NCBI GenBank assembly: GCA_020634575.1
Contig: JACKBM010000010.1
Location: 62,001-126,000, forward strand
Origin: Ardenticatenales bacterium
Lineage (GTDB): Bacteria > Chloroflexota > Anaerolineae > Promineifilales > Promineifilaceae
Length of the DNA stretch: 64,000 nt
Direction of reading: 5' to 3'
How positions within the stretch are numbered: position 1 is the first letter of the stretch; the number at the start of each line of letters is the position of its first letter. Under the pieces are notes generated by a model. The model searched no databases. It was given only the letters and a program-made list of their open reading frames with translations, and was not told the origin of the DNA. Both the position numbers and the translations under genes were made by a program. This document shows, piece after piece, positions 7,592-58,676 of the stretch.

Positions 7592-7680
7592 CCCTTCGCT
7601 GCGCTCAGGGTGACAGGCACCTCGCTGCGCTCGGTGTGACGCCTCGCTGTGCTCGGCGTGACAGGCGTGACAGGCGGGTG
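7588..7680. repeat. cluster of short dispersed-type repeats (CTTCGCTGCGCTCAGGGTGACA family)
   Basis: Three degenerate copies of a roughly 25-base unit with a CTTCGCTGCGCTC core and GTGACA end, beginning at the stop codon of the signal peptidase gene. Such units are widespread short interspersed repeats in bacterial intergenic DNA. They fill the gap to the microcompartment operon. Confidence 0.6.
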
Positions 7681-7716
7681 AGTAGGGCAATTGCCGCTAT
7701 AACTGGGAACGGTCCA

Positions 7717-8415
7717 ATGGATCCTGATGAGTTGGAAAAGATGGTGCGCAAGGTGGTGGCCCGGACTTTGGGGCAGCGTTCTGGTCGCCTGATTGTTGAT
7801 GAAGAACTGATTCGGACCTTGCCCGCCGGGCAGCCGTATGAGGTACCGGCCGGTGCCCTCGTCACCCCCCTGGCTCGCCAGGCCGCCCTCGAGCTGCAAA
7901 TTAAACTGATTGAAGGTAATTCTACGCCGGGCCCCAAAGCTGGCGCCGCTTTACCTGGCGCGCAGACGGTCGCCATCGGCGCCGACCACGGCGGCTTCAA
8001 ACTCAAGGAACTCCTCAAAAAACAACTGGCTGACGCCCACTACAAAGTAGTTGATTGCGGCACCCATTCTACCGACGCGGTTGATTATCCTGACCAGGCG
8101 TATGCGGTCGCTCGCCTGGTGGCGGATGGGACGGCCTGGCGGGGCATCATCATTGATGGCGCCGGCATCGGCAGTTGTATGGCCGCCAACAAGGTGCCGG
8201 GCGTTAGGGCGGCGATGTGTTACGATCAGGCAACCGCCGTCAACAGTCGCGAGCATAACAACGCCAATGTCCTGACCCTCGGGGCCGGGCTCATTGGCGA
8301 TAACCTGGCCAAGGCGATCGTGACGACCTGGCTGAGCACCGAGTTTGGCGGCGGCCGTCACGGGCGGCGGGTGGATAAGATTGACGCCATCGAAAGGCGG
8401 TATACGAAGCGATGA
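7717..8415 (+). CDS. rpiB: RpiB/LacA-family sugar-phosphate isomerase with encapsulation peptide
   Basis: 232 residues from the ATG at 7717. Residues 1-19 ([19 protein letters not shown]) form an amphipathic helix like microcompartment encapsulation peptides, followed by a flexible linker to about residue 83. The rest is a full RpiB domain: [14 protein letters not shown] (87-100), [31 protein letters not shown] (147-165), HNNAN (180-184) and the C-terminal [11 protein letters not shown]. The enzyme interconverts ribose 5-phosphate and ribulose 5-phosphate. The extra N-terminal 83 residues are absent from housekeeping RpiB. It overlaps the next gene (ATGA) and is the first gene of the microcompartment locus, where it probably works in the lumen. 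A frame upstream of the ATG reads through repeats and is unlikely to be translated. Confidence 0.93.
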
Positions 8416-9296
8416 ATCAGTACGATAGACAGACCGTAGAGCGCATCATCGAGGAAGTCACCCGTGAGGTAGTCCTGCGGCTCAACCAGGCGCAGAACGG
8501 GGCGCCGGCCTGTGATTGCAGCGCTGGTGGCGCCGCCTGCGCGGACTGCGTCAACAAGATGGCGGCCGCCGGGGCCGACCGGGTTTCCGGCCGGTTGGGC
8601 AACAAATCTTACCAGAGCGACGTGGCCCGGCTCATCGACCATACGCTGCTGAAGGCGGACGCCAGCCAGGACGAGATCGCCCAGCTCTGCTACGAGGCCA
8701 AAACCTACAATTTTGCTTCGGTCTGCGTGAACCCGGCCCATGTCAAGCTGAGCGCCCAACTGCTCAAGGGTTCCCCGGTCAAGGTCTGCACCGTCATCGG
8801 CTTCCCGCTGGGGGCGTCGGCCTCGACGACCAAGGGGTTTGAGGCGGGCCAGGCGATTCGGGACGGGGCAACTGAGCTGGATATGGTGATCAACGTCGGC
8901 GCCCTGAAGTCGCAGGATTATGACGCCGTCCTGGAAGATATTGCGACCGTTGTGAGCGTTGGTCATGCCAGCAATGCGCTGGTCAAGACGATATTGGAAA
9001 CGGCGCTGCTGACGGATGAAGAGAAGGTGATCGCCTGCCAGCTGGCCAAGGTGGCGGGCGCGGATTTTGTTAAGACGTCGACCGGCTTTGGGCCGGGTGG
9101 GGCGACGGTTGAAGATGTGCGCCTGATGCGTCAGGTCGTCGGCCCGGATATTGGCGTCAAAGCGTCTGGCGGCGTGCGCACGTTTGAGGATGCGCAGGCG
9201 ATGGTGGCGGCGGGGGCGACCCGTTTGGGCGCCAGCGCCGGGGTACGCATCGTCAGTGGACAAAGCGCTGGGGCTGTGTCAAAATCCACCTACTGA
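8412..9296 (+). CDS. deoC: deoxyribose-phosphate aldolase with encapsulation peptide and Cys-rich linker
   Basis: A 294-residue class I aldolase cleaving 2-deoxyribose 5-phosphate to glyceraldehyde 3-phosphate and acetaldehyde. The catalytic set is present: Asp157 ([11 protein letters not shown]), Schiff-base Lys221 ([13 protein letters not shown]) and Lys250 ([11 protein letters not shown]). The usual family is about 215-260 residues; the extra here is N-terminal. Residues 5-26 form an amphipathic encapsulation-type helix, then a linker holds Cys34, Cys36, Cys43 and Cys46 (CDC...CADC), a possible metal or Fe-S site or disulfide hinge. It overlaps rpiB by 4 bases and the next gene by one base. 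In this setting acetaldehyde would be passed to the aldehyde dehydrogenase at 11927 inside the shell. Confidence 0.95.
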
Positions 9297-9553
9297 TGCC
9301 TATGATTTGCACTCAATGCCGCATTGGGCGGCTGCACGATATTCAGGCTCCCTACATCAAGGAGTTTCAGGGGCAGATGCTGGTCTTTTCGAATGTACCG
9401 GCCGGTCGCTGTGATGTCTGTGATGAGGTTGAGTATGATATGGCCTTTATGACCCGGTTGCTCTGCTTGCTGGACCCGGAGTACATGGCGGAGGCGGCCG
9501 ACATCGTCAAACGCCACACCCCCCAGCCCAACCAGGCCTGGCATTTTCTTTAA
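9296..9553 (+). CDS. YgiT-type zinc-ribbon protein
   Basis: 85 residues; the ATG overlaps the deoC stop (TGATG), so translation is coupled. CTQC near the start and CDVC at about 39-42 form a zinc ribbon like the N-terminal domain of MqsA/YgiT antitoxins. The C-terminal helix (FMTRLLCLLDPEYMAEAADIV) lacks a recognisable helix-turn-helix, and no MqsR-like toxin is adjacent. Within the microcompartment operon it could be a small regulator or adaptor. Role unknown. Confidence 0.65.
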   Translation: MPMICTQCRIGRLHDIQAPYIKEFQGQMLVFSNVPAGRCDVCDEVEYDMAFMTRLLCLLDPEYMAEAADIVKRHTPQPNQAWHFL

Positions 9554-9555
9554 AG

Positions 9556-9690
9556 AGGAGCCACGGATTAACACGGATTTGGCACGGATTATTTGGTGAT
9601 TTGGTCTTGATTGGCCATATCATAAATCGGGATATGACCTTCCCACTCATTCTAAATCCGTGCAAAATCCGTGTTAATCCGTGGCCAAAA
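9556..9690. repeat. ATCCGTG/CACGGAT inverted repeat pair
   Basis: Left part GCCACGGATTAACACGGATT; right part, about 70 bases later, is its near inverse (AATCCGTGTTAATCCGTGGC). The same family recurs at 48712-48830 and 52722-52800. Here it separates the zinc-ribbon gene from the first shell gene and could fold into a long hairpin in the operon transcript. Confidence 0.75.
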
Positions 9691-9706
9691 ATTCCCGGAG
9701 TGAGAC

Positions 9707-10348
9707 GTGTCTTCTGTTGAATTGCGTAGTTATGTGTTTTTGGACAGCTTGCAGGTGCAGCACGCCTCGTTTTTGGGGACGGTGGCCCGGGGCTTTTTGC
9801 CGTTGCCGGGTGACGCCTCGCTCTGGATTGAGATCTCCCCGGGGATTGAGATTAACCGGATCACCGATGTCGCCCTGAAGGCGACCGGGGTGCGGCCGGG
9901 GATGCAGATCGTGGAACGGCTTTATGGCTTGCTGGAGGTTCATTCCAGCAGCCAGGGCGAAGTTCGGGCGGCAGGCCAGGCGATTCTGGAGGCGCTGGAG
10001 CTGCATGAAGAGGATCGCCTCAAGCCCAGCGTCATCTCCAGCCAGATCATCCGCAACATCGACCCGCACCAGGCGCAGCTGATCAACCGGATGCGCCACG
10101 GGCATATGATCGTGGCCGGGCAGACGTTGTATGTGATGGAAGTGCAGCCGGCGGCCTATGCGGCCCTGGCCGCCAATGAAGCGGAAAAAGCGGCGCGGCT
10201 GAACATCCTGGAAGTCCAGGCGTTTGGCAGCTTCGGCCGGGTTTACCTCGGTGGTGAAGAGCAGGACGTGATGGCGGGTTACCAGGCGGCCATTGATGCC
10301 GTCGAGTCTATGACCGGCCGGTCCCAGGCCACCAAGAAATCAGAGTAA
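9707..10348 (+). CDS. tandem BMC-domain shell protein (BMC-T)
   Basis: 213 residues with two BMC domains. Domain 1 spans about 1-95 ([20 protein letters not shown], with [19 protein letters not shown] at its end). Domain 2 spans about 105-205 ([19 protein letters not shown] and [19 protein letters not shown]). Length and layout fit BMC-T proteins, which form pseudohexameric trimers in the facets of microcompartments and often gate large pores. The start is the GTG at 9707, six bases after a GTGAGAC stretch. It is the first shell gene of the locus. Which substrate would pass its pore cannot be told from sequence. Confidence 0.88.
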
Positions 10349-10349
10349 C

Positions 10350-10394
10350 TAATAGCTAACAGCTAACAGCTATTAGCTGTTAGCTGACAGCTTC
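10350..10394. repeat. AGCTAACAGC-type short tandem/inverted repeat
   Basis: Several copies of AGCTAACAGC and its inverse GCTGTTAGCT lie side by side, able to form a hairpin just upstream of the BMC-H ribosome binding site. Related copies occur at 15335-15368 and 35562-35592. Confidence 0.7.
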
Positions 10395-10406
10395 AAAGGA
10401 GAAGAT

Positions 10407-10697
10407 ATGGCAGATGCATTAGGCATGATCGAATGTCGCGGTTTTGCGGCCATGGTCGAAGCGTCGGATGCGATGGTGAAGGCGGCTCGTGTGGAGCTGG
10501 TCGGCTACGAGAAGACCGGCGGCGGCTTTGTGACCGCCATTGTGCGCGGTGACGTAGCGGCCGTGAAAGCAGCCGTCGAAGCGGGTACCCGTGGCGCTGA
10601 GAAAGTCGGCGAAGTGGTTTCCGTCCATGTCATCCCGCGCCCGCACGGCAATGTTGACCAGGTCCTGCCGCTGGGCCGGCAGGATGCGACTGATTAA
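10407..10697 (+). CDS. hexameric microcompartment shell protein (BMC-H)
   Basis: 96 residues forming a single BMC domain of the PduA/EutM/CcmK class: [19 protein letters not shown] start, [32 protein letters not shown] and [13 protein letters not shown] end. The pore-lining region after [12 protein letters not shown] is where selectivity would be set. AAGGAG precedes the ATG by about 8 bases. It is the only BMC-H gene visible in the locus, so it is likely the main facet tile. It lies 14 bases upstream of a BMC-P gene. Confidence 0.96.
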
Positions 10698-10711
10698 CCA
10701 GGCGTGGCAAC

Positions 10712-10999
10712 ATGTATTTAGGTAAGGTCGTCGGTACTGTCGTGGCCTCGCAAAAAGAGGCGTCGTTGGAAGGGCTCAAATTTTTGACCGTCCGGCGGCT
10801 GACGATTGATGGCCAGGAGACCGAAACCTACGTGGTGGCGGCGGATGCCGTTGGCGCCGGTCTGGGCGAGGTGGTGATGATCGCCACCGGCAGTTCGGCC
10901 CGGCAAACGGTGATGACCGACAAGCGGCCCTGTGACGCGGTCGTCATGGCCATTGTCGATACCTGGGAAGTCAACGGCGACGAAAAGTATCGCAAATAA
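10712..10999 (+). CDS. pentameric microcompartment vertex protein (BMC-P, EutN/CcmL family)
   Basis: 95 residues with the hallmarks of the EutN/CcmL family: [53 protein letters not shown] and [13 protein letters not shown]. These pentamers cap the vertices of the icosahedral shell. It is one of three BMC-P genes in this locus, the others being at 15963 and 16254. Confidence 0.95.
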
Positions 11000-11008
11000 A
11001 TGGGTATT

Positions 11009-11032
11009 GGCCCCGGGCGCAGGTCCGGGGCC
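11009..11032 (+). other. strong hairpin within the microcompartment operon
   Basis: Stem GGCCCCGG / CCGGGGCC with an 8-base interior, 9 bases after the BMC-P stop. No T-tract, so it may stabilise the 3' end of the shell transcript or attenuate rather than terminate. Confidence 0.5.
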
Positions 11033-11044
11033 AATTGACATTTG

Positions 11045-11926
11045 ATGACCCCTGCCACGAAGGAGAAACGGACCCAGCTGACGCAGTTTATCCGGGAGGT
11101 GCTGGCGCCTTTCCCGGAGCTGGTGGGTGTGGTTGGTATTGGTAGCATCGGGACCGGCCGGTGCCGGCCTGATTCGGACATCGACGCAGTCGTTTTTCTC
11201 GACCCGCTGGATCTGTACATTGTGCCGGCGGAAGCGATCTGGGTACCCCAGACCGATACATTCCACTCCATTTTTGCGGAAAGCGAGACGCTCGCGGCAG
11301 AAGGGATCCCACTGGATTTTCTGCGTCTGGATTTTCAGCTCTGGTCCAAGCCAGACTTTGTCTGGCCGGAAGCGCGCCGGGCTGAGTTGAGCCAGGGCTG
11401 GTTGGCCTATGATCGGGATGGCCGTCTGGCTGAGCTGATCGCCGCGCGCACCGCTTATGGTGAGGCGGAGCAAATCACCCGGCTGGATGAGGCGATCACC
11501 TGGCTGGACCAGCATCTGAACTGGGATGCACCCGAGCAGAATTGGAAGGCCTTAGGCCCCACCATCGCCCATGATCGGTTGCATGCGGCTTTTCAATACC
11601 TGGCGGCGGCGCTTTTTGCCTACAACCGGCGCTGGCTGCCCTGGCGTAACCGGCAGATGAGCGCTTTGCTGGCCTTGCCCTGGTTGCCGGACCATTTTGA
11701 CGACTGGGTGTTGCTGGCCAACAACGCGCCCTCCCTGGACAAGGTTGGCTATGACCGGCGGGTGCTGGCGCTGCGGACAATTTTTGACGATATTTTGCGT
11801 CAGGTCCGGCAGGATGGGTTGTATGGCGACGACCCGATCGGCGCAGCGTTTATTCGGTCGCATGAAGAGCCGGGGCGATCCTGGAATATGGCAACGTTCA
11901 ACGAGCGGCGCAGAAAGGCGGAGTAG
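11045..11926 (+). CDS. nucleotidyltransferase-fold protein in the microcompartment operon
   Basis: 293 residues from the ATG at 11045 (a TTG is directly before it). The N-terminal domain carries GIGSIGTGRCRPDSDIDAVVFL, the GS-x-G and D-x-D signature of polymerase-beta-like nucleotidyltransferases (about residues 32-53). The helical C-terminal half (about 140-270) resembles the substrate-binding part of aminoglycoside-type or lincosamide-type enzymes. The third catalytic acid may be in FLRLDFQLW. The stop is immediately followed by the aldehyde dehydrogenase ATG, so it is inside the operon. Substrate unknown; sugar or nucleoside phosphates would suit the neighbours. Confidence 0.75.
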   Translation: MTPATKEKRTQLTQFIREVLAPFPELVGVVGIGSIGTGRCRPDSDIDAVVFLDPLDLYIVPAEAIWVPQTDTFHSIFAESETLAAEGIPLDFLRLDFQLWSKPDFVWPEARRAELSQGWLAYDRDGRLAELIAARTAYGEAEQITRLDEAITWLDQHLNWDAPEQNWKALGPTIAHDRLHAAFQYLAAALFAYNRRWLPWRNRQMSALLALPWLPDHFDDWVLLANNAPSLDKVGYDRRVLALRTIFDDILRQVRQDGLYGDDPIGAAFIRSHEEPGRSWNMATFNERRRKAE

Positions 11927-13375
11927 ATGGATCAGAAACAAATCCAAACCATTATCGATCAGGTGATGCGCGAGATTGGCGGACCGGCCGGTGGCCCACC
12001 CCCAATCGAACGGCCGGCGCCCCCGCCACCGCCAGAACCGATCAAAGGGGATGACGGCCTTTTTGCCACGCTGGATGAAGCGGTGGCTGCCGCCCGTTAT
12101 GCCCACCAGGAACTTAACGCCCTGCCGCTGGCAATCCGCAAAGATCTGATCGCCCACATGCGCCAGGCGGGGCGCCAATACGCCACCGTGCTGGCGGAGA
12201 TGGCGGTCAGCGAGACCGGCATGGGCCGCGTCGAAGACAAAACGCTCAAGAACATCCTCAACGCTGATAAGGCTGAAGGGCCGGAAGGGTTGGACACCAC
12301 TGCCTGGACCGGCGACAAAGGGCTGACGCTTGTCGAGTATGCCCCCTACGGCGTCATCGGCGCCCTTACCCCCAGCACCAACCCGACGAGCACGGTGTTG
12401 TGCAACGGGATTGCGATGGTATCGGCCGGGAACGCGGTTGTCTTTAACGCCCATCCCAGCTCCAAAGGGGCGACCAACTACACCGTTCAGATTATGAACC
12501 GGGCGATCCAGAAGGCGGGCGGGCCGGCCAACCTGCTCTGCGCCGTGCGCGAGCCCACGCTGGAGAGTGCCCAGGGGCTGATGACCCATCGTGGCGTCAA
12601 CTTGCTGACCGTGACCGGCGGCGCCGCCGTCGTACGGGCGGCGATGCAGAGCGGCAAACGCGCCGTCTGCGCCGGCCCGGGCAACCCGCCGGTCGTCGTC
12701 GACGAAACGGCTGATATCGCGCAGGCCGGCCGGGATATCGTGATCGGCGGTTCCTTTGATAACAACATCGTCTGCACCACAGAAAAGATGACCTTTGCGG
12801 TCTCATCGATCTGTGATGATCTGATGAATGTGATGACCCGTAACGGGGCGATTAAGCTGAATAGCTGGCAGTTCAACCGGTTGTGGCAGGCCGTGACCGT
12901 CAAGGATCGCGGGCCGCGCAAATATGCGGATATGAACAAAGCATTTATCGGCAAGAACGCGTCCGTGCTGCTGGCTGAGATAGGCATCTCCGCCGGGCCG
13001 GAAGTGCGCCAGATCATTGCCGAAGTGCCAGCCGACCATCCAGCCGTTTGGTCGGAGCAGATGATGCCGCTGATGCCCATTGTGCGGGTGCAGAACGCGG
13101 ATGAGGGCATCGACCTGGCGGTGGAGGCCGAACATGGCTTCCGGCATACGGCGGTGATGCATTCCAAAAACCTGGATAACCTGAGCCGGATGGCTCGTTT
13201 GATGAATTGCAGCATCTTTGTGAAAAATGGACCAAACCTAGCCGGATTGGGCTATGGCGGCGAAGGGTATTGTTCGTTTACCATAGCAAGCCCAACGGGT
13301 GAAGGCTTAACAGGTCCGCGCAGTTTCAGTCGCATCCGCCGCTGCACATTGGTGGACTCCTTCCGAATTGTTTAG
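11927..13375 (+). CDS. microcompartment aldehyde dehydrogenase, PduP/EutE-like
   Basis: A 482-residue CoA-acylating-type aldehyde dehydrogenase. Residues 1-19 (MDQKQIQTIIDQVMREIGG) form an encapsulation helix, followed by a Pro-rich linker (24-38). The NAD-binding and catalytic domains contain EYAPYGVIGALTPSTNPT (137-154), the VTGG motif near 229-232, and the catalytic Cys283 in DNNIVCTTEK. It starts directly after the previous stop. Expected reaction: acetaldehyde from DeoC plus CoA and NAD+ to acetyl-CoA and NADH. PduP-like enzymes normally work with a phosphotransacylase and an alcohol dehydrogenase that recycle cofactors; neither is in the rest of this locus. Confidence 0.95.
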   Translation: MDQKQIQTIIDQVMREIGGPAGGPPPIERPAPPPPPEPIKGDDGLFATLDEAVAAARYAHQELNALPLAIRKDLIAHMRQAGRQYATVLAEMAVSETGMGRVEDKTLKNILNADKAEGPEGLDTTAWTGDKGLTLVEYAPYGVIGALTPSTNPTSTVLCNGIAMVSAGNAVVFNAHPSSKGATNYTVQIMNRAIQKAGGPANLLCAVREPTLESAQGLMTHRGVNLLTVTGGAAVVRAAMQSGKRAVCAGPGNPPVVVDETADIAQAGRDIVIGGSFDNNIVCTTEKMTFAVSSICDDLMNVMTRNGAIKLNSWQFNRLWQAVTVKDRGPRKYADMNKAFIGKNASVLLAEIGISAGPEVRQIIAEVPADHPAVWSEQMMPLMPIVRVQNADEGIDLAVEAEHGFRHTAVMHSKNLDNLSRMARLMNCSIFVKNGPNLAGLGYGGEGYCSFTIASPTGEGLTGPRSFSRIRRCTLVDSFRIV

Positions 13376-13434
13376 TTGTTTGCTGTAAAGCGGGGCGCTT
13401 GCCTTTAAGCTAAGAGCAAACACAGGGATTGACG

Positions 13435-13968
13435 ATGGCAAATTATCTTTATCGCCGGCCGACGCAGCTGGACTTATTTACCGATTCGTACCGGGTGAGC
13501 GGGCGCGCCATGATCGGTACGGGCGGGTTGTACGCCGAACTGGACAATCCAAACTCCTCATTTCTCGAGCTACAGGATGCCTATATTTCCCGGATTCATG
13601 AGCCGGGCGAGATTATCCTCAGCTATGAGACGGCCGCTTTCCGCAAAGATAATATCAATTTCATCATTTTGCAGGACCGCCGCGACGGCGTTGCTGTGGG
13701 TACACAGCATGGCCGTTCCGTGTTTACGCGCGGCCGGCCGATCAACCTGTTTGTGACCGTGCCAGCTTTTGAGATCAGCGGCACCGTCATGTACGAAGGA
13801 TCGCCGACCCCGCAATCATTGGTTGTGCAATCGATTGGCGGCTATCTGATGGCGTTTGACGCCAAGGCGATGGCTTCGGTTCGCCCAGACCTGGAATACA
13901 GCGGCGATTTGATCATGATTCATAAAGAACGCATTGGCATCCTTTGTCTGGACGCCAAGCGGCAGTAA
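13435..13968 (+). CDS. unknown protein in the microcompartment locus
   Basis: 177 residues from the ATG at 13435 (an upstream TTG is also in frame). The sequence is soluble and beta-rich (TGGLYAELDNPNSSFLELQDAY, EPGEIILSYETAAF, NLFVTVPAFEISGTVMYEG, YSGDLIMIHKERIGILC). The N-terminal half looks like a PilZ- or RHS-like small barrel, but I cannot assign it. No signal peptide or transmembrane segment. It lies between the aldehyde dehydrogenase and the receiver-ParA fusion, with 60-80 base gaps. It may work with the latter, as partner proteins of ParA-like ATPases often do, but that is only positional inference. Confidence 0.7.
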   Translation: MANYLYRRPTQLDLFTDSYRVSGRAMIGTGGLYAELDNPNSSFLELQDAYISRIHEPGEIILSYETAAFRKDNINFIILQDRRDGVAVGTQHGRSVFTRGRPINLFVTVPAFEISGTVMYEGSPTPQSLVVQSIGGYLMAFDAKAMASVRPDLEYSGDLIMIHKERIGILCLDAKRQ

Positions 13969-14046
13969 TTGATACGCAGGCTACTGACCTGATTGAGTGT
14001 TTTGGGTTAGTGGACAGCCAGCGCCATTCAGCAAGGAGGTCACTCC

Positions 14047-15183
14047 GTGGCTACCATATTTGCCATAGATGACGATCACCACCTACTCGACCTGGTCGCG
14101 ATGACCCTTTCCAAGGCGAATCACGAGGTCATCAAATTTAACCGGCCCGGCCCCGCCCTTGAAGAACTGAAAAAGACAAAACCAGACCTGATAGTGGTTG
14201 ACGTCATGATGCCGGAGATGAGCGGCCATGAGTTCTGCCGGCGCGTGCGCGCGGATGCGGAGACGCAGGCATTGCCGATCATGGTGCTGACGGCGCGGTC
14301 GCAGGCAATTGACCGGGCGGCGGCGTTGTCCAGCGGGGCGGACAGCTACATGTCCAAGCCATTTACGGCCAATGAACTGATCAGCGCCATCGACAGCATC
14401 CTGGTGACGGATGAAGAGGTCCCGGCCGAATCTCTGCCCAAGATCGGCATCGTCATTTCCGTGTTCTCCATGCATGGCGGTGTCGGGCAGACGACGCTGG
14501 CGGTGAACCTGGCGGCGGCGTTGCGCCATATCAGCAACAAGCCGGTCTGCCTGGTGGATATGTCGCCTTCAGTGGGTCAGGTGACGACCCATCTGCGTTT
14601 GCGGACGCGCAAGAGCTGGCTGGATCTGACCCGGCCGGAGGAGATCACCTGGCCATTGATCAAAGAAACGATGGTGCAGCATTCCTCCGGGCTACATGTG
14701 CTGGCTTCGCCGCCGGTGCCGGTTTCGGCGATGAAACCCTCCTTTGAAACAACCAAAGCGATTTTCGAGCAGCTGTACCAGCATTCGCTGTTTACGATTG
14801 TGGATACGCCGCCCGGGCTCAATCCGGCGGCGGAAGCGATTCTGGGGTTGTCTGACCTGATTTTCCATGTCGTGGTGCCGGAATTTACCTCCGTGCGAAT
14901 CGCCGCCAAGAGCAACATCGTGTTGGCAGAAGAGCCTTACAAGAGCCGGCAGAAAGTGCATGTCCTCAATCACATCACGCCGGAAGCCCAGCTGCCGGTT
15001 GATGCGATTGAAAAAGCGCTCAACGCTCGCATCGCTTTTGAAGTGGGCTATGACATGAAGCAGCCGCTGGCCCTGGCCCAGGGCGAACCGCTGCCCATGG
15101 ACTCCGACTCGTCGCCCATGCCCATGGCCGTCCGCCGGATTGCCACGGTGCTGTGGAACCGGATGAAGACGGGGGCGAGGTAG
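14047..15183 (+). CDS. receiver-ParA fusion, CpaE/TadZ-like, with degenerate Walker A
   Basis: 378 residues from a GTG at 14047 with AAGGAGG about 8 bases upstream. Residues 1-120 are an apparently complete receiver domain (acidic DDDH near residue 8, phospho-acceptor in IVVDVMMPEMSG, LTAR, SKPFT). Residues about 135-375 are a MinD/ParA-type domain. Its P-loop reads MHGGVGQTTLAVNLAAAL, where canonical proteins have KGGVGKTT; both the signature lysine and the P-loop lysine are replaced. The same kind of layout (receiver plus atypical Walker A) is known in TadZ/CpaE polar localisers. No tad/cpa pilus genes are nearby; the neighbours are shell genes on both sides. A role in placing microcompartments, similar in principle to McdA with carboxysomes, is a reasonable inference. 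Confidence 0.85.
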   Translation: MATIFAIDDDHHLLDLVAMTLSKANHEVIKFNRPGPALEELKKTKPDLIVVDVMMPEMSGHEFCRRVRADAETQALPIMVLTARSQAIDRAAALSSGADSYMSKPFTANELISAIDSILVTDEEVPAESLPKIGIVISVFSMHGGVGQTTLAVNLAAALRHISNKPVCLVDMSPSVGQVTTHLRLRTRKSWLDLTRPEEITWPLIKETMVQHSSGLHVLASPPVPVSAMKPSFETTKAIFEQLYQHSLFTIVDTPPGLNPAAEAILGLSDLIFHVVVPEFTSVRIAAKSNIVLAEEPYKSRQKVHVLNHITPEAQLPVDAIEKALNARIAFEVGYDMKQPLALAQGEPLPMDSDSSPMPMAVRRIATVLWNRMKTGAR

Positions 15184-15265
15184 CTGCGCGGGCGGCTGTC
15201 AGCCATCAGCGGTCAGCTGTCAGTGGCCCAGGGCGCGAATTGAGATGGTTTGTGTGGAATGTGGG

Positions 15266-15297
15266 ACTCCCCTGTTATAATGCAGGGGAGTTTTTTT
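15266..15297 (+). terminator. rho-independent terminator
   Basis: Perfect 9-bp stem ACTCCCCTG / CAGGGGAGT with an 8-base loop, then TTTTTTT. It lies 83 bases after the receiver-ParA gene and would end the first microcompartment transcript, so the three shell genes after it probably have their own promoter. Its loop contains TATAATG, which looks like a -10 box but is better explained as the loop. Confidence 0.85.
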
Positions 15298-15334
15298 GTT
15301 TGACTAACCCAATGCAGCAACTTCGCGAACGGTT

Positions 15335-15368
15335 CACTAACAGCTGTCAGCTAACAGCTAACAGCCAC
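15335..15368. repeat. AGCTAACAGC-type short repeat
   Basis: Copies of CAGCTAACAGCTAACAGCC directly upstream of the second BMC-T gene. A degenerate relative (GTCAGCCATCAGCGGTCAGC) is at 15196-15220. Confidence 0.6.
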
Positions 15369-15374
15369 TAACTC

Positions 15375-15953
15375 ATGACTTATCCCGCTCTCGCTCTCCT
15401 CGAATACACAAGCATCGCCGCCGGTATTGCGGCTGGGGATGCGATGGTGAAGCGGGCGCCGGTGGCGACGATTCAGGCGGGGACGGTGCAACCGGGCCAT
15501 TACCTGGTGTTGATCGCCGGCGATGTGGCCTCGGTGGGCGAAGCGTTGACGGCGGGGCGGGAGCTGGATGAGGCGGCGGTCTTTGACAGCCTGTTTCTGC
15601 CCAATGTGCATCCGGATGTCGTCAGCGGGCTGACCGGCGGGCGCGAGCCAGGGGCCGGCGAGGCGTTGGGCGTCATTGAGACGCGCAGCGTGGCGGCGGC
15701 GATCCGGGCGGCGGATGCCGGGGTCAAAGGGGCGGAAGTTGAACTGGTCCGCCTGCGCCTGGCGGATGGGCTGGGCGGCAAAGGGTTGACGCTTTTTGCC
15801 GGGCTGGTTTCGGATGTAGAGGCGGCGGTGGCCATCGCCGCGGCTGAGGCCGGCGATCTGCTCTTGCGCGAGCTGGTGGTGGCGCAGCTCCATGAGGAGA
15901 TGTGGCCGAATGTGTTAAACACCGGCCGGTTCGGCACCCACTTTGGCTGGTAG
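15375..15953 (+). CDS. second tandem BMC-domain shell protein (BMC-T)
   Basis: 192 residues with two BMC domains: one at about 1-92 (PALALLEYTSIAAGIAAGDAMVKRAP, QPGHYLVLIAGDVASVGEAL), the other at about 96-180 (ALGVIETRSVAAAIRAADAGVKGAEVELV, then LFAGLVSDVEAAVAIAAAEAG). The layout is like PduT-type trimers. The C-terminus (LHEEMWPNVLNTGRFGTHFGW) extends past the second domain. It is followed after 9 bases by a BMC-P gene. No Fe-S-type Cys is obvious in the pore loop. Confidence 0.9.
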   Translation: MTYPALALLEYTSIAAGIAAGDAMVKRAPVATIQAGTVQPGHYLVLIAGDVASVGEALTAGRELDEAAVFDSLFLPNVHPDVVSGLTGGREPGAGEALGVIETRSVAAAIRAADAGVKGAEVELVRLRLADGLGGKGLTLFAGLVSDVEAAVAIAAAEAGDLLLRELVVAQLHEEMWPNVLNTGRFGTHFGW

Positions 15954-36825: not shown

Positions 36826-36934
36826 CAGCGGGAGGCGCGGCGCCGCGGGTTGGCGTCTGCCCTGGGCACGCCGGTGCAAATTGTGGCGCTGGCGTCGCCG
36901 CCAGCCTGCGCGCCAACCTGGCCCGCTGGCTGGC

Positions 36935-37050
36935 AACCTGACAGGTCCCCCCAACCTGACGGGTCCCCCCAACCTGACGGGTCCCCCCAACCTGTCGGGT
37001 CCCCCCAACCTGTCGGGTCCCCCCAACCCGTCGGGTTGGCCAACCCCTTT
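36935..37050. repeat. six-copy 18-bp tandem array derived from the REP core
   Basis: Units begin at 36935, 36953, 36971, 36989, 37007 and 37025. The unit is AACCTGACGGGTCCCCCC with changes at the centre (A/T) and ends; the last unit is a complete REP-like palindrome ending in TTGGCCAACCCC. The gap between the GHMP kinase and the next gene (36768-37128) is made of this array and the preceding BIME-like pair; a short low-quality coding-like stretch between them is probably not a gene. Confidence 0.9.
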
Positions 37051-41612: not shown

Positions 41613-41827
41613 TTGACCCGACAGGTTCGACAACCCGACGGGTTCGGCAACCCGACAGGTTCGGCAACCCGACAGGTTCGGCAACCCGACAGGTTCGGCA
41701 ACCCGACAGGTTCGGCAACCCGACAGGTTCGGCAACCCGACAGGTTCGGCAACCCGACAGGTTCGGCAACCCGACAGGTTTGGCAACCCGACGGGTTTGG
41801 CAACCCGACGGGTTCGGCAACCCCTCA
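41613..41827. repeat. twelve-copy 17-bp tandem array of the REP core
   Basis: Unit CAACCCGACAGGTTCGG, period 17, twelve units. Most have CAGG at the centre; the second and the last two have CGGG, the full palindrome. The right end becomes CAACCCCTCA, which is the inverse head TGAGGGG of the REP-like family. It fills nearly all of the gap between the RAYT start and the Fpg stop. Confidence 0.95.
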
Positions 41828-52721: not shown

Positions 52722-52800
52722 TTTGCCACGGATTAGCACGGATTTGCCACGGATTCTGAGGAGGATGAACCTAAAAGAAATCTGTGCCAATCTGTGGCTT
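52722..52800. repeat. ATCCGTG/CACGGAT repeat
   Basis: TTGCCACGGATTAGCACGGA, TTTGCCACGGATTCT, then AATCTGTGCCAATCTGTGGC. It is translated on the minus strand as the C-terminus of the cupin gene. Confidence 0.8.
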
Positions 52801-53425
52801 TCTTCTCCCCGACTAAAGGATTGGTCTCGAGGTCGCCGTACCAGGCAAAGAGGGTGAGCATCGGCTCGGTCAGGGTGCGCATGGCGTGGGGCTGGTTGGT
52901 CGCGTGGTAGATGAGCGAACCGGCCGGTCGTCTCACCCAGCCCCCATCATCCACCTGCCATTCCCCCTCGCCAGACAGCACCCCATAAAACTCGATGGCC
53001 GGGTGCCAATGGGAGGCGTAGAAGATGTTGGGCCCCTGAATGGTCAGCCCCGCCAGCACCTGCTCGCTGCTCCAGACAGGGCCTGGACCTTCAGCCGGAC
53101 GCGGCCCGACCAGCTCAACGAACGCATAGGCGCCTGCAAGTTCCGGCCCGGCGTAGCTGACCGGCATCGTCGACCAGGGCAACTGTGCCGCCGTGGCCTG
53201 GACTGCTGTGACCAGCCGTTGCAGGGCCCGGGCGGCCGGCACACGCGGTCGATGACCCAGCCAATCTGTTACGACAGGTGGGCAGTGCGGGGTGATGGTT
53301 GGGTTTCCGGCCGGTGTAGCCTGGATCGCGGTCACGATGGCGTCAAAAGTGGGCTGATCAGCGCCTGCGGCCGGCTGCCAGAAACGAAATGCGTCGACAA
53401 AAGCAGGCCACAATTGCGCGTGCAT
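52733..53425 (-). CDS. cupin, DMSP lyase-like
   Basis: 230 residues. The cupin motif 1 is His139-x-His141-x3-Glu145 (IFYASHWHPAIEFYGVLSG) and motif 2 holds His180 (YHATNQPHAMRTL). The fold and the HWHPxxE and YHxxxxPH layout match dimethylsulfoniopropionate lyase DddQ/DddL-like proteins, though activity on DMSP cannot be shown from sequence. The last about 20 residues (KKATDWHRFLLGSSSSESVA) come from the inverted repeat at 52722 and are atypical. It may be a general dioxygenase-fold protein instead. Confidence 0.8.
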   Translation of the reverse strand: MHAQLWPAFVDAFRFWQPAAGADQPTFDAIVTAIQATPAGNPTITPHCPPVVTDWLGHRPRVPAARALQRLVTAVQATAAQLPWSTMPVSYAGPELAGAYAFVELVGPRPAEGPGPVWSSEQVLAGLTIQGPNIFYASHWHPAIEFYGVLSGEGEWQVDDGGWVRRPAGSLIYHATNQPHAMRTLTEPMLTLFAWYGDLETNPLVGEKKATDWHRFLLGSSSSESVANPC

Positions 53426-53470: not shown

Positions 53471-54286
53471 CTACTGTCCTGCTAGTTTTGCTTCAATGAC
53501 CTCGGCGAAGACAGCGAACGGCTGAGCGCCGAATAGCTGTTGACCATTAATGTCGAACGTCGGTCGCTGGCGAATGCCGGCTTCGCGCCGCTGGCTATCC
53601 AGCGCGGTGATGTGACCATGGGCCTCGCCACTGCTGTAGCATTCATTGAACTGCGCCACATCCACACCAACCGATTCGGCGATTGCCGCAAAATAAGCGT
53701 CGTCAGCCGAACTCAGCTCTCGCTGGTTTTCGAAGAAGCGGTCATGGACGTTCCAGAACGCGTCCGGGCTCTGCCGGCCGATGCAATCCGCCGCCGCATG
53801 CGCATTCATGCTGCCCGGGCCAAAGTCGACGATGGGCCAGAAGACGATCTTAACCAGGCCATTGTCCACGTAATTGCTGATGATTTCCTTCTCGGATCCT
53901 AGCACGTAGGATCGGCAGGTACTTCAGAAGAAGTCCGAATAATCAATCAGTACCACCGGCGCATCGGCCCGGCCGCGGAAATAGGTGCCGTCCGCGTTGC
54001 GCCCGTTGACTTCGACCTCAGTCATTGTCTCAGTGGCTTCGGTCGGACTGGCTTGCGTCGTAGCCGTTGCTTCGGCCATGGCCGGCTCGTCTGTTGGGTC
54101 ACTGCCAGCTGTTGCTGCAACAACGACGGCGACGGTCGCGGTAGCCGGGACATCGGTGGCCGCTGGCGCGGTTGTAGCGGCTGGCGCCGTTGCCTCGCCC
54201 GCAGTTTCGCTGCCTGAGCTGCAAGCTGCCAGCAGGATGCCCCCCAGCAGTAGCAAACTGAACAGCCGGTTCACTTGTTTATTCAT
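53471..54286 (-). CDS. DsbA-like selenocysteine lipoprotein (UxxC), second of a pair
   Basis: Read with one in-frame TGA (53924-53926) as selenocysteine, this is a 271-residue lipoprotein. Lipobox is LLAAC (Cys22), followed by a Thr/Ala/Pro-rich linker to about residue 95. The thioredoxin-fold domain begins with ADAPVVLIDYSDFF, then U121-Ser-Thr-Cys124-Arg, the place where homologues have CxxC. After that come KIVFWPIVDFGPGSMNAHAAADCIG, FWNVHDRFFENQ, and RPTFDINGQQLFGAQPFAVF with the cis-Pro. Without recoding it would stop right at the active site, and the remaining 144 residues would be an orphan fragment. The start overlaps the upstream paralogue by 8 bases. Function: probably an extracytoplasmic thiol oxidoreductase. 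Sec machinery is not in the window. Confidence 0.82.
53895..53913 (-). other. putative bacterial SECIS hairpin, downstream gene
   Basis: On the minus strand GATCCTA, loop CGTGC, TAGGATC, beginning 10 bases after the TGA at 53924. Perfect 7-bp stem. The loop carries G and U as bacterial SECIS apical loops do, 17 bases downstream of the UGA. The paralogue has the same spacing and loop but a different stem sequence. Confidence 0.75.
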
Positions 54287-55118
54287 CAGGTAACTCCGTC
54301 CGGATCACGCCGGCGAAAATGTCGAAGGGGGCAGCGCCGAAGAAGACCTGCCCATTGATATCAAAAACGGGTTGACCGCTAATGCCACGCTCGCGGCGAA
54401 TGGTATCCAGCTCGAGGACATGAGCCACCGACGCCGGATCATCGTAACAAGCCTCAAAGGTGGCCTGGTCAGCGCCCACAGCCGCTGCCGCGCTGACGAA
54501 ATAATCCCGATCGGCCCGCCACAAGGCTGTCTGGTCTGTAAACAGTTGGTCGTGAATCTCCCAGAACAGGGCCGGATCCTGCCAACCAACGCAGAAAGCG
54601 GTCAGGGTTGAGTAGACGCTGGGCTGCCCATGATTGAGCACCGGCCAAAACACCATCTGCAACTGACCGCTGTCGACAAACTCAGCGGCGAGCTGTTTCT
54701 CAGTGCCTAGCACGTAGGCACGGCAATTGGGTCAGAGAAAGTCCGAATAATCAATCAGACGGACCGGGGCGCTTGGCGAGCCACGGTAAAAGGTCCCCTC
54801 AAACTCCCCGTACCACGGTTCAGCCGTGGCTGTGGGTTCGCTGGGGACAGGCGTGGCCGTCGCCTCTACCGGGGTCAGCGTCGGCCCCGGTGTGTATGTT
54901 GCCGGCGCTGGCAGTTCAGTCTGCGTGGGACGCGGGGCGTTGGGTGCGCTGGTTGCCGTCGCCACCGCAGCCCCCGACTCATCGGGTCCCTGCGACAGAT
55001 CTTCCTCTTGCATAGCCGACGCAAGGACCCGATGAGTCGGGGGCGGGGGCGAGGAGCTCGGCTGGCAACCTATGAGAACGGCCAGGAGTAACCCTGACCA
55101 GATAAGTCGTTTCAGCAT
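54279..55118 (-). CDS. DsbA-like selenocysteine lipoprotein (UxxC), first of a pair
   Basis: Read with the in-frame TGA at 54732-54734 as selenocysteine, 279 residues from the ATG at 55118, chosen for GGGAAG 7 bases upstream (an ATG at 55124 is too close to that site). Lipobox LIGC (Cys18), a long Thr/Pro-rich linker, then SAPVRLIDYSDFL, U129-Pro-Asn-Cys132-Arg at the expected active site. After it follow LQMVFWPVLNHGQPSVYSTL, FWEIHDQLFTDQ and GQPVFDINGQVFFGAAPFDIF (cis-Pro). The two genes have about the same domain order and overlap by 8 bases, so they are translated together. TGA is an ordinary stop elsewhere in the window, which argues against a reassigned code. Confidence 0.82.
54703..54721 (-). 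other. putative bacterial SECIS hairpin, upstream gene
   Basis: On the minus strand GTGCCTA, loop CGTGC, TAGGCAC, beginning 10 bases after the TGA at 54732. Perfect 7-bp stem. The inner CTA/TAG pairs and loop match the other hairpin; outer pairs differ but still pair (compensatory changes). Confidence 0.75.
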
Positions 55119-55217: not shown

Positions 55218-55925
55218 TCAGGCCGGGCGCTGGCCCACATGGATGGCGATGGTGCCGAACATGAACAGCTTGTAACTCACATTCTGGAAGCCGGCCGCGC
55301 GCATCAATTCCGCCAATTCTTCGGGGGCCTTGAACTGTTGGGTGCTGTCCGGCAGATAAGAGTAAGCTTCGGACTCGCCGGTGAGCAGCCGACCCAGGAG
55401 CGGGATGACATAGTTGAGATGGATGAGGATAAAAGGGCGCAACAAATTGCGTTTTGGCGGGCTTGATTCCAGGATGACGATGCGGCCACCCGGCTTCAGC
55501 ACCCTGCGCTGTTCGGCCAACGCGCCCGGTACATCGATGACATTGCGCATCAGGAAGCCGGAGGTGACGGCATCAAACAACTGGTCGGGGAAGGGTAGAG
55601 CCAGGGTGTCGGAACCGACCCAACGAATGGTTTGCCGGTTGGGAATCCGTTTGCCGGCTTGCATCATCTCAATGGTGAAGTCACCGCCGACCGCTTCAAT
55701 GCCGGGCTGCTGCTTCAACCCTTCCAGGGCGATGTCGCCGGTGCCGGTGGCGATGTCGAGGAGGCGACCGCCGGGCGGGAGCTGGGCTTGCTGGATGACG
55801 TAGCGGCGCCAGCGAATATCCTGGCCGCCAGTCATCACCCGGTTCATCAGGTCATACCGGCCGGCGATACGGGCGAACATGCCCTGGACGTAATCCGCCC
55901 GTTCTTTGCCTTGCAGATGGGCCAT
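55218..55925 (-). CDS. ubiE: ubiquinone/menaquinone biosynthesis methyltransferase
   Basis: 235 residues. The UbiE/MenG pattern is clear: VQGMFARIAGRYDLMNRVMTGG, LLDIATGTGDIALEGL (SAM motif I), GGDFTIEMMQAGK, LPFPDQLFDAVTSGFLMRNV and GGRIVILESSPPKRN. It C-methylates the quinone precursor, so the organism makes menaquinone or ubiquinone. It follows FtsK on the same strand (2-base gap) and may share its transcript. Confidence 0.96.
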   Translation of the reverse strand: MAHLQGKERADYVQGMFARIAGRYDLMNRVMTGGQDIRWRRYVIQQAQLPPGGRLLDIATGTGDIALEGLKQQPGIEAVGGDFTIEMMQAGKRIPNRQTIRWVGSDTLALPFPDQLFDAVTSGFLMRNVIDVPGALAEQRRVLKPGGRIVILESSPPKRNLLRPFILIHLNYVIPLLGRLLTGESEAYSYLPDSTQQFKAPEELAELMRAAGFQNVSYKLFMFGTIAIHVGQRPA

Positions 55926-55927
55926 GT

Positions 55928-58654
55928 TTACTCTTCGGGGGTCAGATCCAGCACATCGCGCGCTTTGCTGGTGCCGGTGGGCGGGCCGATGATCCCTTTC
56001 TCTTCCATGTAATCAATAATGCGAGCCGCGCGCGTGTAACCGATGCGGAAGCGGCGCTGCAGCAACGAGGTTGAGGCCTTATTCATTTCCCGTACCGCCG
56101 TGATCGCCTCTTCAAGGAGATCGTCGTCAAATTCCTCCTCCTGCTCCCGTTCGACCAGATCTTCCCAGAGGGGCGGCTGTTCGATTGTGGTTGCGGTGGT
56201 GACGGGCGGTGGGGCAGCAGGTGCCGCTACAGGGGCGAACTCGGGGGGCACCTCTACAATATCGGGCGCCAGGATCTCTTCTGCCTCGTCAGACTCTTCA
56301 ATCTCGGCGGCGGGTTCTGGCGCTGCTGGCGGTGGGGGCGGCGTGGACACGCGGCGCGAGGGCGGCGCGGCTTCATATTCCCCTTCCGGCAGCGTGACGG
56401 AACGCTCTTCGATCAGCGAGCGCGCCTGGGCGTCTTCAGCGGTAATGAGGTTATAGCGGCGGGCTGTCTTCCAATAATCAATCAGCCGATCCAGCTCATC
56501 TTCGCTAACATAACAGCCCTGCAGGCGAACAGGTGCGGCCGCATCCGGACTCTGAAATAGCATGTCACCCTTACCCAGCAGCCGCTCCGCCCCAGTCGAG
56601 TCCAGGATGACGCGACTGTCCGTGCTGGAGGCAACGGCAAAGGCGATGCGCGCCGGGAAGTTCGCTTTGATGAGGCCGGTCACAACATCGACCGAGGGAC
56701 GCTGGGTGGCGATGATCATATGCATGCCGGTCGCCCGGGCCATCTGCGCCAGCCGGCTGATGCCCCGTTCCGTCTCTTCCGGCGATAACATCATCAGGTC
56801 CGCCAGCTCGTCGATCACAATGACGATATAGGGCAGCTTGTTGCGCTTCTTGCGCCCCATCTTCTTGTTGTATTCGACGATGTTGCGCGCGCCGATCTCG
56901 GCAAACCGCTTGTAACGGTTTTCCATCTCCCGAATCGCCCATTGCAGCACGCCGATAACCCGGTCCATCTCCACCACGACTGGCGCAACCAGGTGGGGGA
57001 TGCCGTTATAGCCGGTCAGCTCGACCCGTTTCGGGTCAACCATGACAAATTTGAGCTCTTCTGGCGTATTTTCCAGCAGCAGACAGGCAATGATGGCGTT
57101 GACGCAGACCGACTTACCGGAACCGGTTGTACCGGCGACCAGCAGGTGCGGCATCTTGGATAGGTCGGTGCAAACCGGTTGCCCCGCCACATTCTGCCCC
57201 AGGCCAATGCGGACCGGGGATTTGATCTTCTGGTAGTCGCCTGACTCCATCAGGTCGCGCAGCGAAACGAGGGCCGTGGCGGTATTGGGCACTTCGATGC
57301 CGACGTAGCCCTTGCCGGGGACAGGCGCCTGCACACGCACACTGTGGGCGGCCAGCGCCAGCGCCAGGTCATCCGCCAGGCTGGCGATTTTGCCGACCTT
57401 GACCTTGGTCCGTTTGCCGCCGCGCATCTCCAGGAATTGCGGCTCGACGCCGAACTGGGTGACGGTGGGACCCTGGTTGATGTCCACGACAATAGCCGGG
57501 GCGCCAAAGCTTTCTAGCGTATGTTCGATGACCTCGACCTGCTCACGGATGCTGTCGTTGCTGATCTCCTGGTCAGAGCCTGACTCCAGGACTTCGGCCA
57601 GGACAGGGAGCTGCCAGTTGGGTTCCCGTTGCAGCTGACCTTCTGGCTCATCCAGGTCGGTTGGGGGCGTGGCGGCGATTTCCGGCTCGGCCGGTTGGGC
57701 GGCGGTATTGCGCCGCCCCCGGCTGCCATTGCGCGTTGCTGCCGCCGCTGGCGCCGCTGTTTCGGCCGCTGGCGGTTCCTGGTCAACTTCGAAGGGGATG
57801 TCGTCATCAGGCGGCGGTGGGGGTTCATTGCGGGGGAGGTCACGAACCGGCCGGTTTGGCCGCACCGGCTCCCGCCGCGCATTCCCCAGCGGCAACGGCC
57901 GCTGCTCGGGTACAGCTTCGCGGACCGGTCGCTCCCTAAGACCCTGCCAGGCCGCTGTAATAAAGGCGCCAAAATCGGTGCGACTGACGCCGCTAACCAG
58001 AATGGCGCCCAGCAAGCCGAGAATCAACAAAATGAAGACGGTGCCAATCGTGTCAAAGGCCTGTACAGATAGGCCGGCGAGCACACCGCCCAGATAACCA
58101 CCGCCCTGTTGATTGCGGGCCACAGCCATGTAATCCAGGACACCTTCACTCTGATTGACCACAATCAAGGAGGCAAAGGTGCTGAAGACCAGGAAGAGCA
58201 GCACCGCGCCTGTGACACGCCAGCCACTGAATCGAGGCGGCTGGTCCATCCCCCACAGCACCAGGTAGATGCCGGTGCCCGCCATAAATAGCGGTACCAG
58301 GATGCCGCCCCAGCCAAACAACGTGCGCAGCCAGCGCTCCAGCGTCATGGGCAGTATGCCCCTGTTGGGCGAGATCAGGCTCAGCACCAAAATCCCGGTT
58401 GTAAATATCAGGATGATGCCAACAACCAGGGCTTTCTGCTGCAAATCGAGGGAGAAATTAAATTTCGGCAGCAGGTTTCGTTTGGGGCGGCGAGTACTGC
58501 TGTTACTTCGTTTGCTGCTGGTCCGCTTGCTGCTGCTGGTCCGCCGTGAAGCGGAGCTGCTCCGGCCCGAGGTTCCGCCGCGGGTTGCCTGCACCTTCTT
58601 GGTCGTATTTTTTTTGCTGGTGGTACGACGCCCGTCTGGAGATTTCCGTGTCAT
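55928..58654 (-). CDS. ftsK: DNA translocase FtsK/SpoIIIE
   Basis: About 908 residues from the ATG at 58654 (an ATG at 58672 overlaps the -10 box). A Ser/Arg/Lys-rich N-terminus leads to four membrane segments (LVVGIILIFTTGILVLSLI, GGILVPLFMAGTGIYLVLWG, VTGAVLLFLVFSTFASLIVV, TIGTVFILLILGLLGAILV). A Pro/Ala/Glu-rich linker follows, then the motor: Walker A LLVAGTTGSGKSVCVNAII, Walker B-like VIVIDELADLMM, and a gamma winged helix at the C-terminus (TSLLQRRFRIGYTRAARIIDYMEEKGIIGPP). It pumps DNA during division. KOPS-reading is by the gamma domain. Confidence 0.96.
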   Translation of the reverse strand: MTRKSPDGRRTTSKKNTTKKVQATRGGTSGRSSSASRRTSSSKRTSSKRSNSSTRRPKRNLLPKFNFSLDLQQKALVVGIILIFTTGILVLSLISPNRGILPMTLERWLRTLFGWGGILVPLFMAGTGIYLVLWGMDQPPRFSGWRVTGAVLLFLVFSTFASLIVVNQSEGVLDYMAVARNQQGGGYLGGVLAGLSVQAFDTIGTVFILLILGLLGAILVSGVSRTDFGAFITAAWQGLRERPVREAVPEQRPLPLGNARREPVRPNRPVRDLPRNEPPPPPDDDIPFEVDQEPPAAETAAPAAAATRNGSRGRRNTAAQPAEPEIAATPPTDLDEPEGQLQREPNWQLPVLAEVLESGSDQEISNDSIREQVEVIEHTLESFGAPAIVVDINQGPTVTQFGVEPQFLEMRGGKRTKVKVGKIASLADDLALALAAHSVRVQAPVPGKGYVGIEVPNTATALVSLRDLMESGDYQKIKSPVRIGLGQNVAGQPVCTDLSKMPHLLVAGTTGSGKSVCVNAIIACLLLENTPEELKFVMVDPKRVELTGYNGIPHLVAPVVVEMDRVIGVLQWAIREMENRYKRFAEIGARNIVEYNKKMGRKKRNKLPYIVIVIDELADLMMLSPEETERGISRLAQMARATGMHMIIATQRPSVDVVTGLIKANFPARIAFAVASSTDSRVILDSTGAERLLGKGDMLFQSPDAAAPVRLQGCYVSEDELDRLIDYWKTARRYNLITAEDAQARSLIEERSVTLPEGEYEAAPPSRRVSTPPPPPAAPEPAAEIEESDEAEEILAPDIVEVPPEFAPVAAPAAPPPVTTATTIEQPPLWEDLVEREQEEEFDDDLLEEAITAVREMNKASTSLLQRRFRIGYTRAARIIDYMEEKGIIGPPTGTSKARDVLDLTPEE

Positions 58655-58670
58655 AAGCTTACTCGGCAGC

Positions 58671-58676
58671 ATTATA
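58671..58676 (-). promoter_or_regulatory. -10 box upstream of ftsK
   Basis: Perfect TATAAT on the minus strand, overlapping an in-frame ATG at 58672. If used, transcription starts near 58664, so the first usable start codon is the ATG at 58654 and the leader is only about 10 bases. No good -35 was seen. Confidence 0.4.

Follow-up and report, generated by a model that had tools for sequence, protein, structure and literature searches.

Two overlapping genes on the minus strand of a 64,000-nucleotide stretch of contig JACKBM010000010.1 from an Ardenticatenales bacterium (hereafter the window, meaning the whole analysed stretch) most probably encode two membrane-anchored, DsbA-like UxxC thiol-disulfide enzymes, each with one in-frame UGA that is predicted to be translated as selenocysteine (Sec, U) and is followed by a conserved hairpin. 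The selenocysteine reading of both UGAs is very well supported. An earlier note, made from the sequence alone, had already placed selenocysteine at the first CxxC position of two lipoproteins here, and that proposal is upheld by homologues with cysteine, by covariation in the hairpin and by the Sec machinery found in relatives. The features of the pair, including the hairpins that resemble a selenocysteine insertion sequence (SECIS), are as follows.

54279-55118, minus strand: gene 1 (upstream), predicted lipoprotein of 279 amino acids (aa) with readthrough; active site UPNC; QPVF, with Gln before the putative cis-proline; lipobox VLIGC.
54732-54734, minus strand: UGA codon of gene 1, predicted selenocysteine 129 (U129), aligned with Cys of relatives.
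54703-54721, minus strand: SECIS-like hairpin of gene 1, GUGCCUA-CGUGC-UAGGCAC, identified by covariation and a covariance model.
54279-54286, minus strand: 8-nt overlap between the gene 1 stop and the gene 2 start, ATGAATAA, read from the sequence.
53471-54286, minus strand: gene 2 (downstream), predicted lipoprotein of 271 aa with readthrough; active site USTC; RPTF, with Arg before the putative cis-proline; lipobox LLAAC.
53924-53926, minus strand: UGA codon of gene 2, predicted selenocysteine 121 (U121), aligned with Cys in P0003 and six further database relatives.
53895-53913, minus strand: SECIS-like hairpin of gene 2, GAUCCUA-CGUGC-UAGGAUC, identified by covariation and a covariance model.

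Re-reading the frames showed that the earlier note had described the interval 53471-55118 correctly, as two overlapping minus-strand genes with one in-frame TGA each, at the first residue of the DsbA-type CxxC (DYSDFL-U-PNCR in gene 1, DYSDFF-U-STCR in gene 2); no other stop interrupts either frame, and only its remark on register, "55172 to 53713+1000", was garbled. It had also expected a standard annotation to report four fragments, and the table-11 list of open reading frames (ORFs) does split the pair into four. The two joined proteins are 42% identical over 251 aligned positions, and the catalytic part of both matches Pfam Thioredoxin_4 and DSBA. Read by eye, each N-terminus shows a signal-like stretch with a lipobox, after which comes a region rich in Thr, Pro and Ala, and in gene 2 the predicted structure has an N-terminal helix at residues 3-18. 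The overlap of the two genes suggests that their translation may be coupled.

Homologues with Cys at the TGA position, which the earlier note had named as support, are present: all seven database relatives aligned with both window proteins have it, including P0003, which is 57% identical to gene 2. A scan of a genome collection with one genome per species (84,980 species) yielded 24 loci, of which 22 are titled as Chloroflexota groups (for some of these titles the placement is our assumption) and two come from Rubrobacter (L022) and Phenylobacterium (L024). The active-site codon is TGA in 21 of these loci and Cys in two (L015, L024), and L023 ends short of it. The genome nearest to the window by FtsK (61% identity), among 47 genomes compared, is G003. 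In its class, sampled with 298 genomes, 47 have a match above the family cut-off; the 42 matches above the cut-off on their own score comprise 34 with one TGA (in 33 genomes) and eight without, and the best 31 all have one. Of the 30 class matches taken as loci (L033-L062), 29 were read as having TGA at the active site, the exception being L062, which was not viewed singly. Among the 56 genomes in the same order as G003, 29 pass, and all 28 own-score matches carry one TGA, spread over 27 genomes. From the 15th codon past the UGA onwards, nonsynonymous differences are much less frequent than synonymous differences in all ten relative pairs compared, with ratios of nonsynonymous to synonymous rates (dN/dS) of 0.03-0.22 in the seven unsaturated pairs. 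No relative was found on viral contigs with six patterns, a weak test in which one pattern required a Cys codon at the UGA position.

Both UGAs are followed by a 7-bp stem with a 5-nt loop, which starts at the 11th nucleotide past the codon, and the two window hairpins differ from each other by two compensated pair differences. A gapless alignment of 45 UGA-form sequences (two from the window and 43 from the loci; L022 was omitted as a member of another group) has C21, G22, T23 and G24 of the CGUG loop, numbered from the T of TGA, identical in every sequence, with C21 and G24 invariant despite being third codon positions. Across its 44 distinct rows, 95.8% of cells pair, six of the seven pairs have changes on both sides, and 91 cells are double changes. 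Shuffles, which ignore the relatedness of rows, gave a mean of 26.0 double changes (standard deviation 6.4) and none of 500 reached 91; sliding the partner columns by 1-3, which preserves relatedness, gave 3 to 21. A covariance model of these sequences (R1) gives the two window sites, which are among the 45 that built it, 54.7 and 51.4 bits (E 1.5e-12 and 1.1e-11), against 10.2 bits for the runner-up in the 64 kb. Applied to the order's 56 genomes, R1 found 28 places in exactly the 27 UGA-form genomes, 13 of which had supplied model sequences and 14 of which are independent. Bacterial selenoproteins are recognised by a hairpin that lies shortly after the UGA and whose apical loop contains G, and both window hairpins lie close downstream and have such a loop. 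The mean folding energy after the codon is -10.2 kcal/mol in 74 UGA forms versus -4.7 kcal/mol in 24 Cys forms (one-sided p 1.6e-9), and -2.7 kcal/mol in the Cys form L015.

Machinery for Sec decoding was counted in 20 of the 24 locus genomes, those with the family's UGA form. Above the respective cut-offs, selA is present in 19, selB in 18 and selD in 19, each of the 19 selD genes itself having one in-frame TGA; tRNA-Sec with anticodon TCA is present in 17, and all four components occur together in 14. All four are also present in G003. At the first tally, 21 of the 24 genomes had exceeded the tRNA-Sec cut-off; the final count was limited to anticodon TCA because eight weaker matches (32.7-50.5 bits) proved by ARAGORN to be other tRNAs (five tRNA-Ser, two tRNA-Leu and one tRNA-Arg). 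G015, whose copy has Cys, has a tRNA-Sec by ARAGORN together with no selA match and with selB and selD below the cut-off, through either loss or an assembly gap. Within the order, selA discriminates poorly, being found in 24 of 27 UGA-form genomes versus 21 of 29 others.

Some observations weigh against the selenocysteine reading. Taken singly, the window hairpins fold only mildly better than shuffled sequences (z -1.29 and -1.89, with 20 and 12 of 200 shuffles folding equally well), and the case for the hairpin therefore rests on comparison and not on energy. Of the 24 Cys forms, four reach -8.5 kcal/mol or below, and L015 alone falls in the UGA-form tree, the remainder being Cys-type paralogues that share the fold. 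Within the window, no Rfam match exceeded the gathering score and no tRNA was found.

Three explanations that dispense with selenocysteine were considered, and each fares far worse. If the UGA were a true stop, the locus would yield a short N-terminal lipoprotein and a separate C-terminal protein starting at a GTG in the hairpin loop. The ORF list begins the second piece at exactly this GTG, and 119 of 120 database proteins listed are C-terminal pieces of 138-147 aa; yet the GTG belongs to the invariant RNA loop and a start there is a prediction, the split would lose the catalytic residue and leave an N-terminal piece that is mostly tether, full-length Cys forms are known (P0003, L015), and UGA occupies exactly that codon in 21 of 24 loci, all of which makes a genuine stop very improbable. 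Assembly errors or pseudogene decay seem hardly credible given that many independent assemblies show a single UGA in each gene, always at this catalytic codon, and given no further stop in either frame, a proportion of nonsynonymous differences well under that of synonymous ones past the UGA in ten of ten relative pairs, and fragments 94% and 89% identical to the C-terminal halves of gene 2 and gene 1, respectively, on what is very probably one other contig of 47,854 bp. General reassignment of UGA in the organism, for example to Trp, would account for an in-frame UGA that is apparently read through, but UGA ends 26 of the window's 54 non-overlapping ORFs of 150 aa or more, in which TGG occurs 265 times, relatives have tRNA-Sec, and the hairpin would be left without a purpose; we give this explanation next to no weight.

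With UGA read as selenocysteine, the proteins belong to a known family. NF041057, named Rcas_1661 family thioredoxin-like (seleno)lipoprotein, is the sole NCBIfam model above its curated cut-off for the window proteins, which score 283.6 and 280.6 bits against 190 and so both pass by about 90 bits. The review PMC13188914 lists NF041057 as "DsbG-like protein" with UxxC and one Sec; a "DsbG-like protein" with UxxC and pfam13462 appears in the selenoproteome review PMC9312934, a "DsbG-like" selenoprotein family already in PMC1794560, and mentions of "DsbG-like" in PMC1088965, PMC2398784 and PMC7435645. Since the cut-off is passed and the family is listed in reviews, the window proteins are additional members of an established selenoprotein family, which they resemble in UxxC motif and curated score and from which they differ in forming two diverged copies in overlapping genes. 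DsbA-like selenoproteins of other bacteria (PF01323), listed in PMC13188914 and named in PMC1794560, also have UxxC, whereas the window proteins are above the cut-off for NF041057 alone, a separation made by model score.

The predicted structure and its structural matches indicate a thioredoxin fold with a helical insertion and a cis-Pro loop. Proline 242 is invariant in the 21 sequences of alignment A4 and is probably cis. The closest folds are BdbD of Bacillus subtilis (3eu3/3eu4) and DsbA/TsdA of Corynebacterium diphtheriae (4pwo, 7unn), at 22-27% identity; unlike these, the window proteins have a predicted Sec in place of the first Cys and Arg or Gln before the cis-proline. Residues 21-90 are low-confidence coil (ten-residue mean pLDDT, the predicted local distance difference test score, 53-58), and no DsbG/DsbC-type N-terminal dimerisation domain is seen in the prediction.

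The less usual element is the side-by-side pair and not the protein family. The earlier note had regarded a tandem lipoprotein pair of this sort as new; novelty does not extend to the kind of protein, which is curated as NF041057 and present in reviews. The overlapping pair itself was not found in the 56 genomes of the order. There, a single hairpin place was found in 26 of the 27 UGA-form genomes; the remaining one, G005, carries two, separated by 7.4 kb. In the literature searched on selenolipoproteins, Anaerolineae selenoproteins and NF041057/Rcas_1661, with most subscription papers outside the search, no description of a tandem pair was found. Two trees, both quick and built without bootstrap (support in the pair tree is from the Shimodaira-Hasegawa-like approximate likelihood ratio test, SH-aLRT, only), were made; gene 2 clusters with L001, L002, L035 and the Cys form P0003 (support 93) and gene 1 with 19 others (support 98, starred). 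The residue before the cis-proline is Arg in all five rows of the gene 2 group and Gln in all 20 of the gene 1 group, after an automatic reading that was wrong in several rows and a check of seven rows by eye. The two copies of G005 are likewise one of Gln type and one of Arg type. Because the Arg and Gln groups separate in the tree, and G005 also has one copy of each type, the window copies look like two old subtypes side by side (R-cisPro and Q-cisPro) and not like a fresh duplication. The fragments that are 94% (gene 2) and 89% (gene 1) identical to the C-terminal halves each come from one 47,854-bp contig; it is very probably one and the same contig, and the pair is therefore likely retained in a relative.

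Related architectures were observed elsewhere. In L083:1146-3158 (G225) and L086:2-1741 minus (G153, incomplete at the edge of its stretch), a single lipoprotein-like chain comprises three Thioredoxin_4 units, of which the first and third each contain an in-frame UGA (UPFC..UPFC and UPYC..UPYC) and the middle one has CPQC or no Cys pair. NF041057 matches these chains in three stretches, with 461 and 421 bits, and a hairpin was found after three of the four UGAs, the three that were folded. The entry for the family in PMC13188914 gives one Sec, versus the two UGAs of these chains. Nine loci of the same class (L084, L085, L088, L089, L090, L093, L094, L095 and L096) form a second Sec-DsbA-like group (with sites such as DFQ-UPFC or UPYC), and their hairpins differ from the NF041057 hairpin. 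L022:718, from a Rubrobacter metagenome-assembled genome in which selA alone of the four Sec genes is above the cut-off, encodes a DsbA-like protein with an in-frame UGA (UPYC). Cys and Sec copies form arrays in L007, L008, L011 and L012, where the Sec gene is directly preceded by two Thioredoxin_4 units of Cys type, apparently within a single ORF.

From the sequence and from what is known of relatives, we propose how the pair may work. SelB would bind the hairpin, from the 11th nucleotide past the UGA, and deliver Sec-tRNA(Sec). Signal peptidase II cleavage and lipidation at the lipobox cysteine would then hold the two enzymes outside the membrane by a tether rich in Thr, Pro and Ala. The targets of the selenolate there would be disulfides or oxidised thiols in surface proteins, and a selenenylsulfide with the second cysteine would serve to reset it; the R-cisPro and Q-cisPro copies would probably serve different substrates or partners. 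The best reading of the pair is thus two extracytoplasmic, lipid-anchored thiol-disulfide enzymes of BdbD/DsbA fold, for which reduction and oxidation are both possible. A role in reducing or isomerising disulfides, supplied by a DsbD/CcdA-type protein, appears somewhat likelier than oxidation.

Several points limit the reductase reading. BdbD, the closest fold, is an oxidase, which speaks against it; the neighbour survey of 61 loci revealed no partner gene adjoining the pair; and DsbD_TM, found in 17 of 19 UGA-form relatives (the 20 without G011), is also common in controls (10 of 14). VKOR was found in 11 of the 19 relatives and three of the 14 controls, and the two counts do not settle the direction of electron flow. 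It is quite possible, if less probable, that selenocysteine is correct and that the pair acts as BdbD/DsbA-type oxidases, with a VKOR/DsbB-type protein to reset them, as suggested by the nearest folds (BdbD and the corynebacterial DsbA/TsdA) and by the VKOR of relatives including G003 and G006, the two nearest by FtsK score; VKOR was, however, not found in eight of the 19 genomes, whose assemblies are possibly incomplete. A Sec-Cys bridge is usually more reducing than a Cys-Cys bridge, which also counts against oxidases. A more specific proposal, which we consider rather unlikely, is that the overlapping genes form a dedicated surface relay of two selenoenzymes, R-cisPro and Q-cisPro, made in fixed ratio from one transcript and passing electrons between their selenenylsulfides or serving one shared client system; the pair would then be one form of a wider Anaerolineae habit of multiplying Sec-DsbA units, reaching in two relatives a three-domain chain with two UGAs.

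Two upstream neighbours of the pair, named from their sequences, are listed below.

55218-55925, minus strand: UbiE-like methyltransferase, the upstream neighbour.
55928-58672, minus strand: FtsK/SpoIIIE-type ATPase, used as the query for nearest relatives.

In 14 of 61 loci, the window included (many loci are short), an ORF that we take to be UbiE-like precedes the family gene, a presumed FtsK-like neighbour recurs in seven of 61, and a presumed short-chain dehydrogenase lies downstream in 12 of 61, the window not among them. The gene directly downstream of the pair in the window (52733-53425, minus strand) matches Pfam DMSP_lyase (2e-21) and Cupin_2. Elsewhere in the window, 7636-15953 is a likely bacterial microcompartment (BMC) locus with two BMC-domain proteins, an aldehyde dehydrogenase and homologues of DeoC and RpiB, and tandem arrays of a 17-18-nt repeat (ACCCGACAGGTTCGGCA and similar units) occur at 36934-37036 and 41616-41823, along with smaller ones.

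The family is mostly stored as fragments in protein databases. A single-protein search returned seven proteins and an alignment-based profile search 133 (7,998 candidates scored of 5.8 billion proteins); among the 120 matches listed, 119 are C-terminal pieces and one is a full-length Cys form, and 107 of the 119 pieces start with MLG or VLG, as expected from the GTG within the hairpin loop. These records probably reflect mass misannotation, and the family-wide hairpin model, which locates the UGA in raw DNA, allows these enzymes to be annotated correctly. The parts worth following are the subtype pair and the two-UGA chains of relatives. The Arg/Gln difference beside the cis-proline makes the pair a natural experiment on selenium retention in an exposed enzyme, with P0003 carrying Cys instead among UGA forms in the tree, and the two-UGA chains raise the question of how well one ribosome can decode UGA twice per protein.
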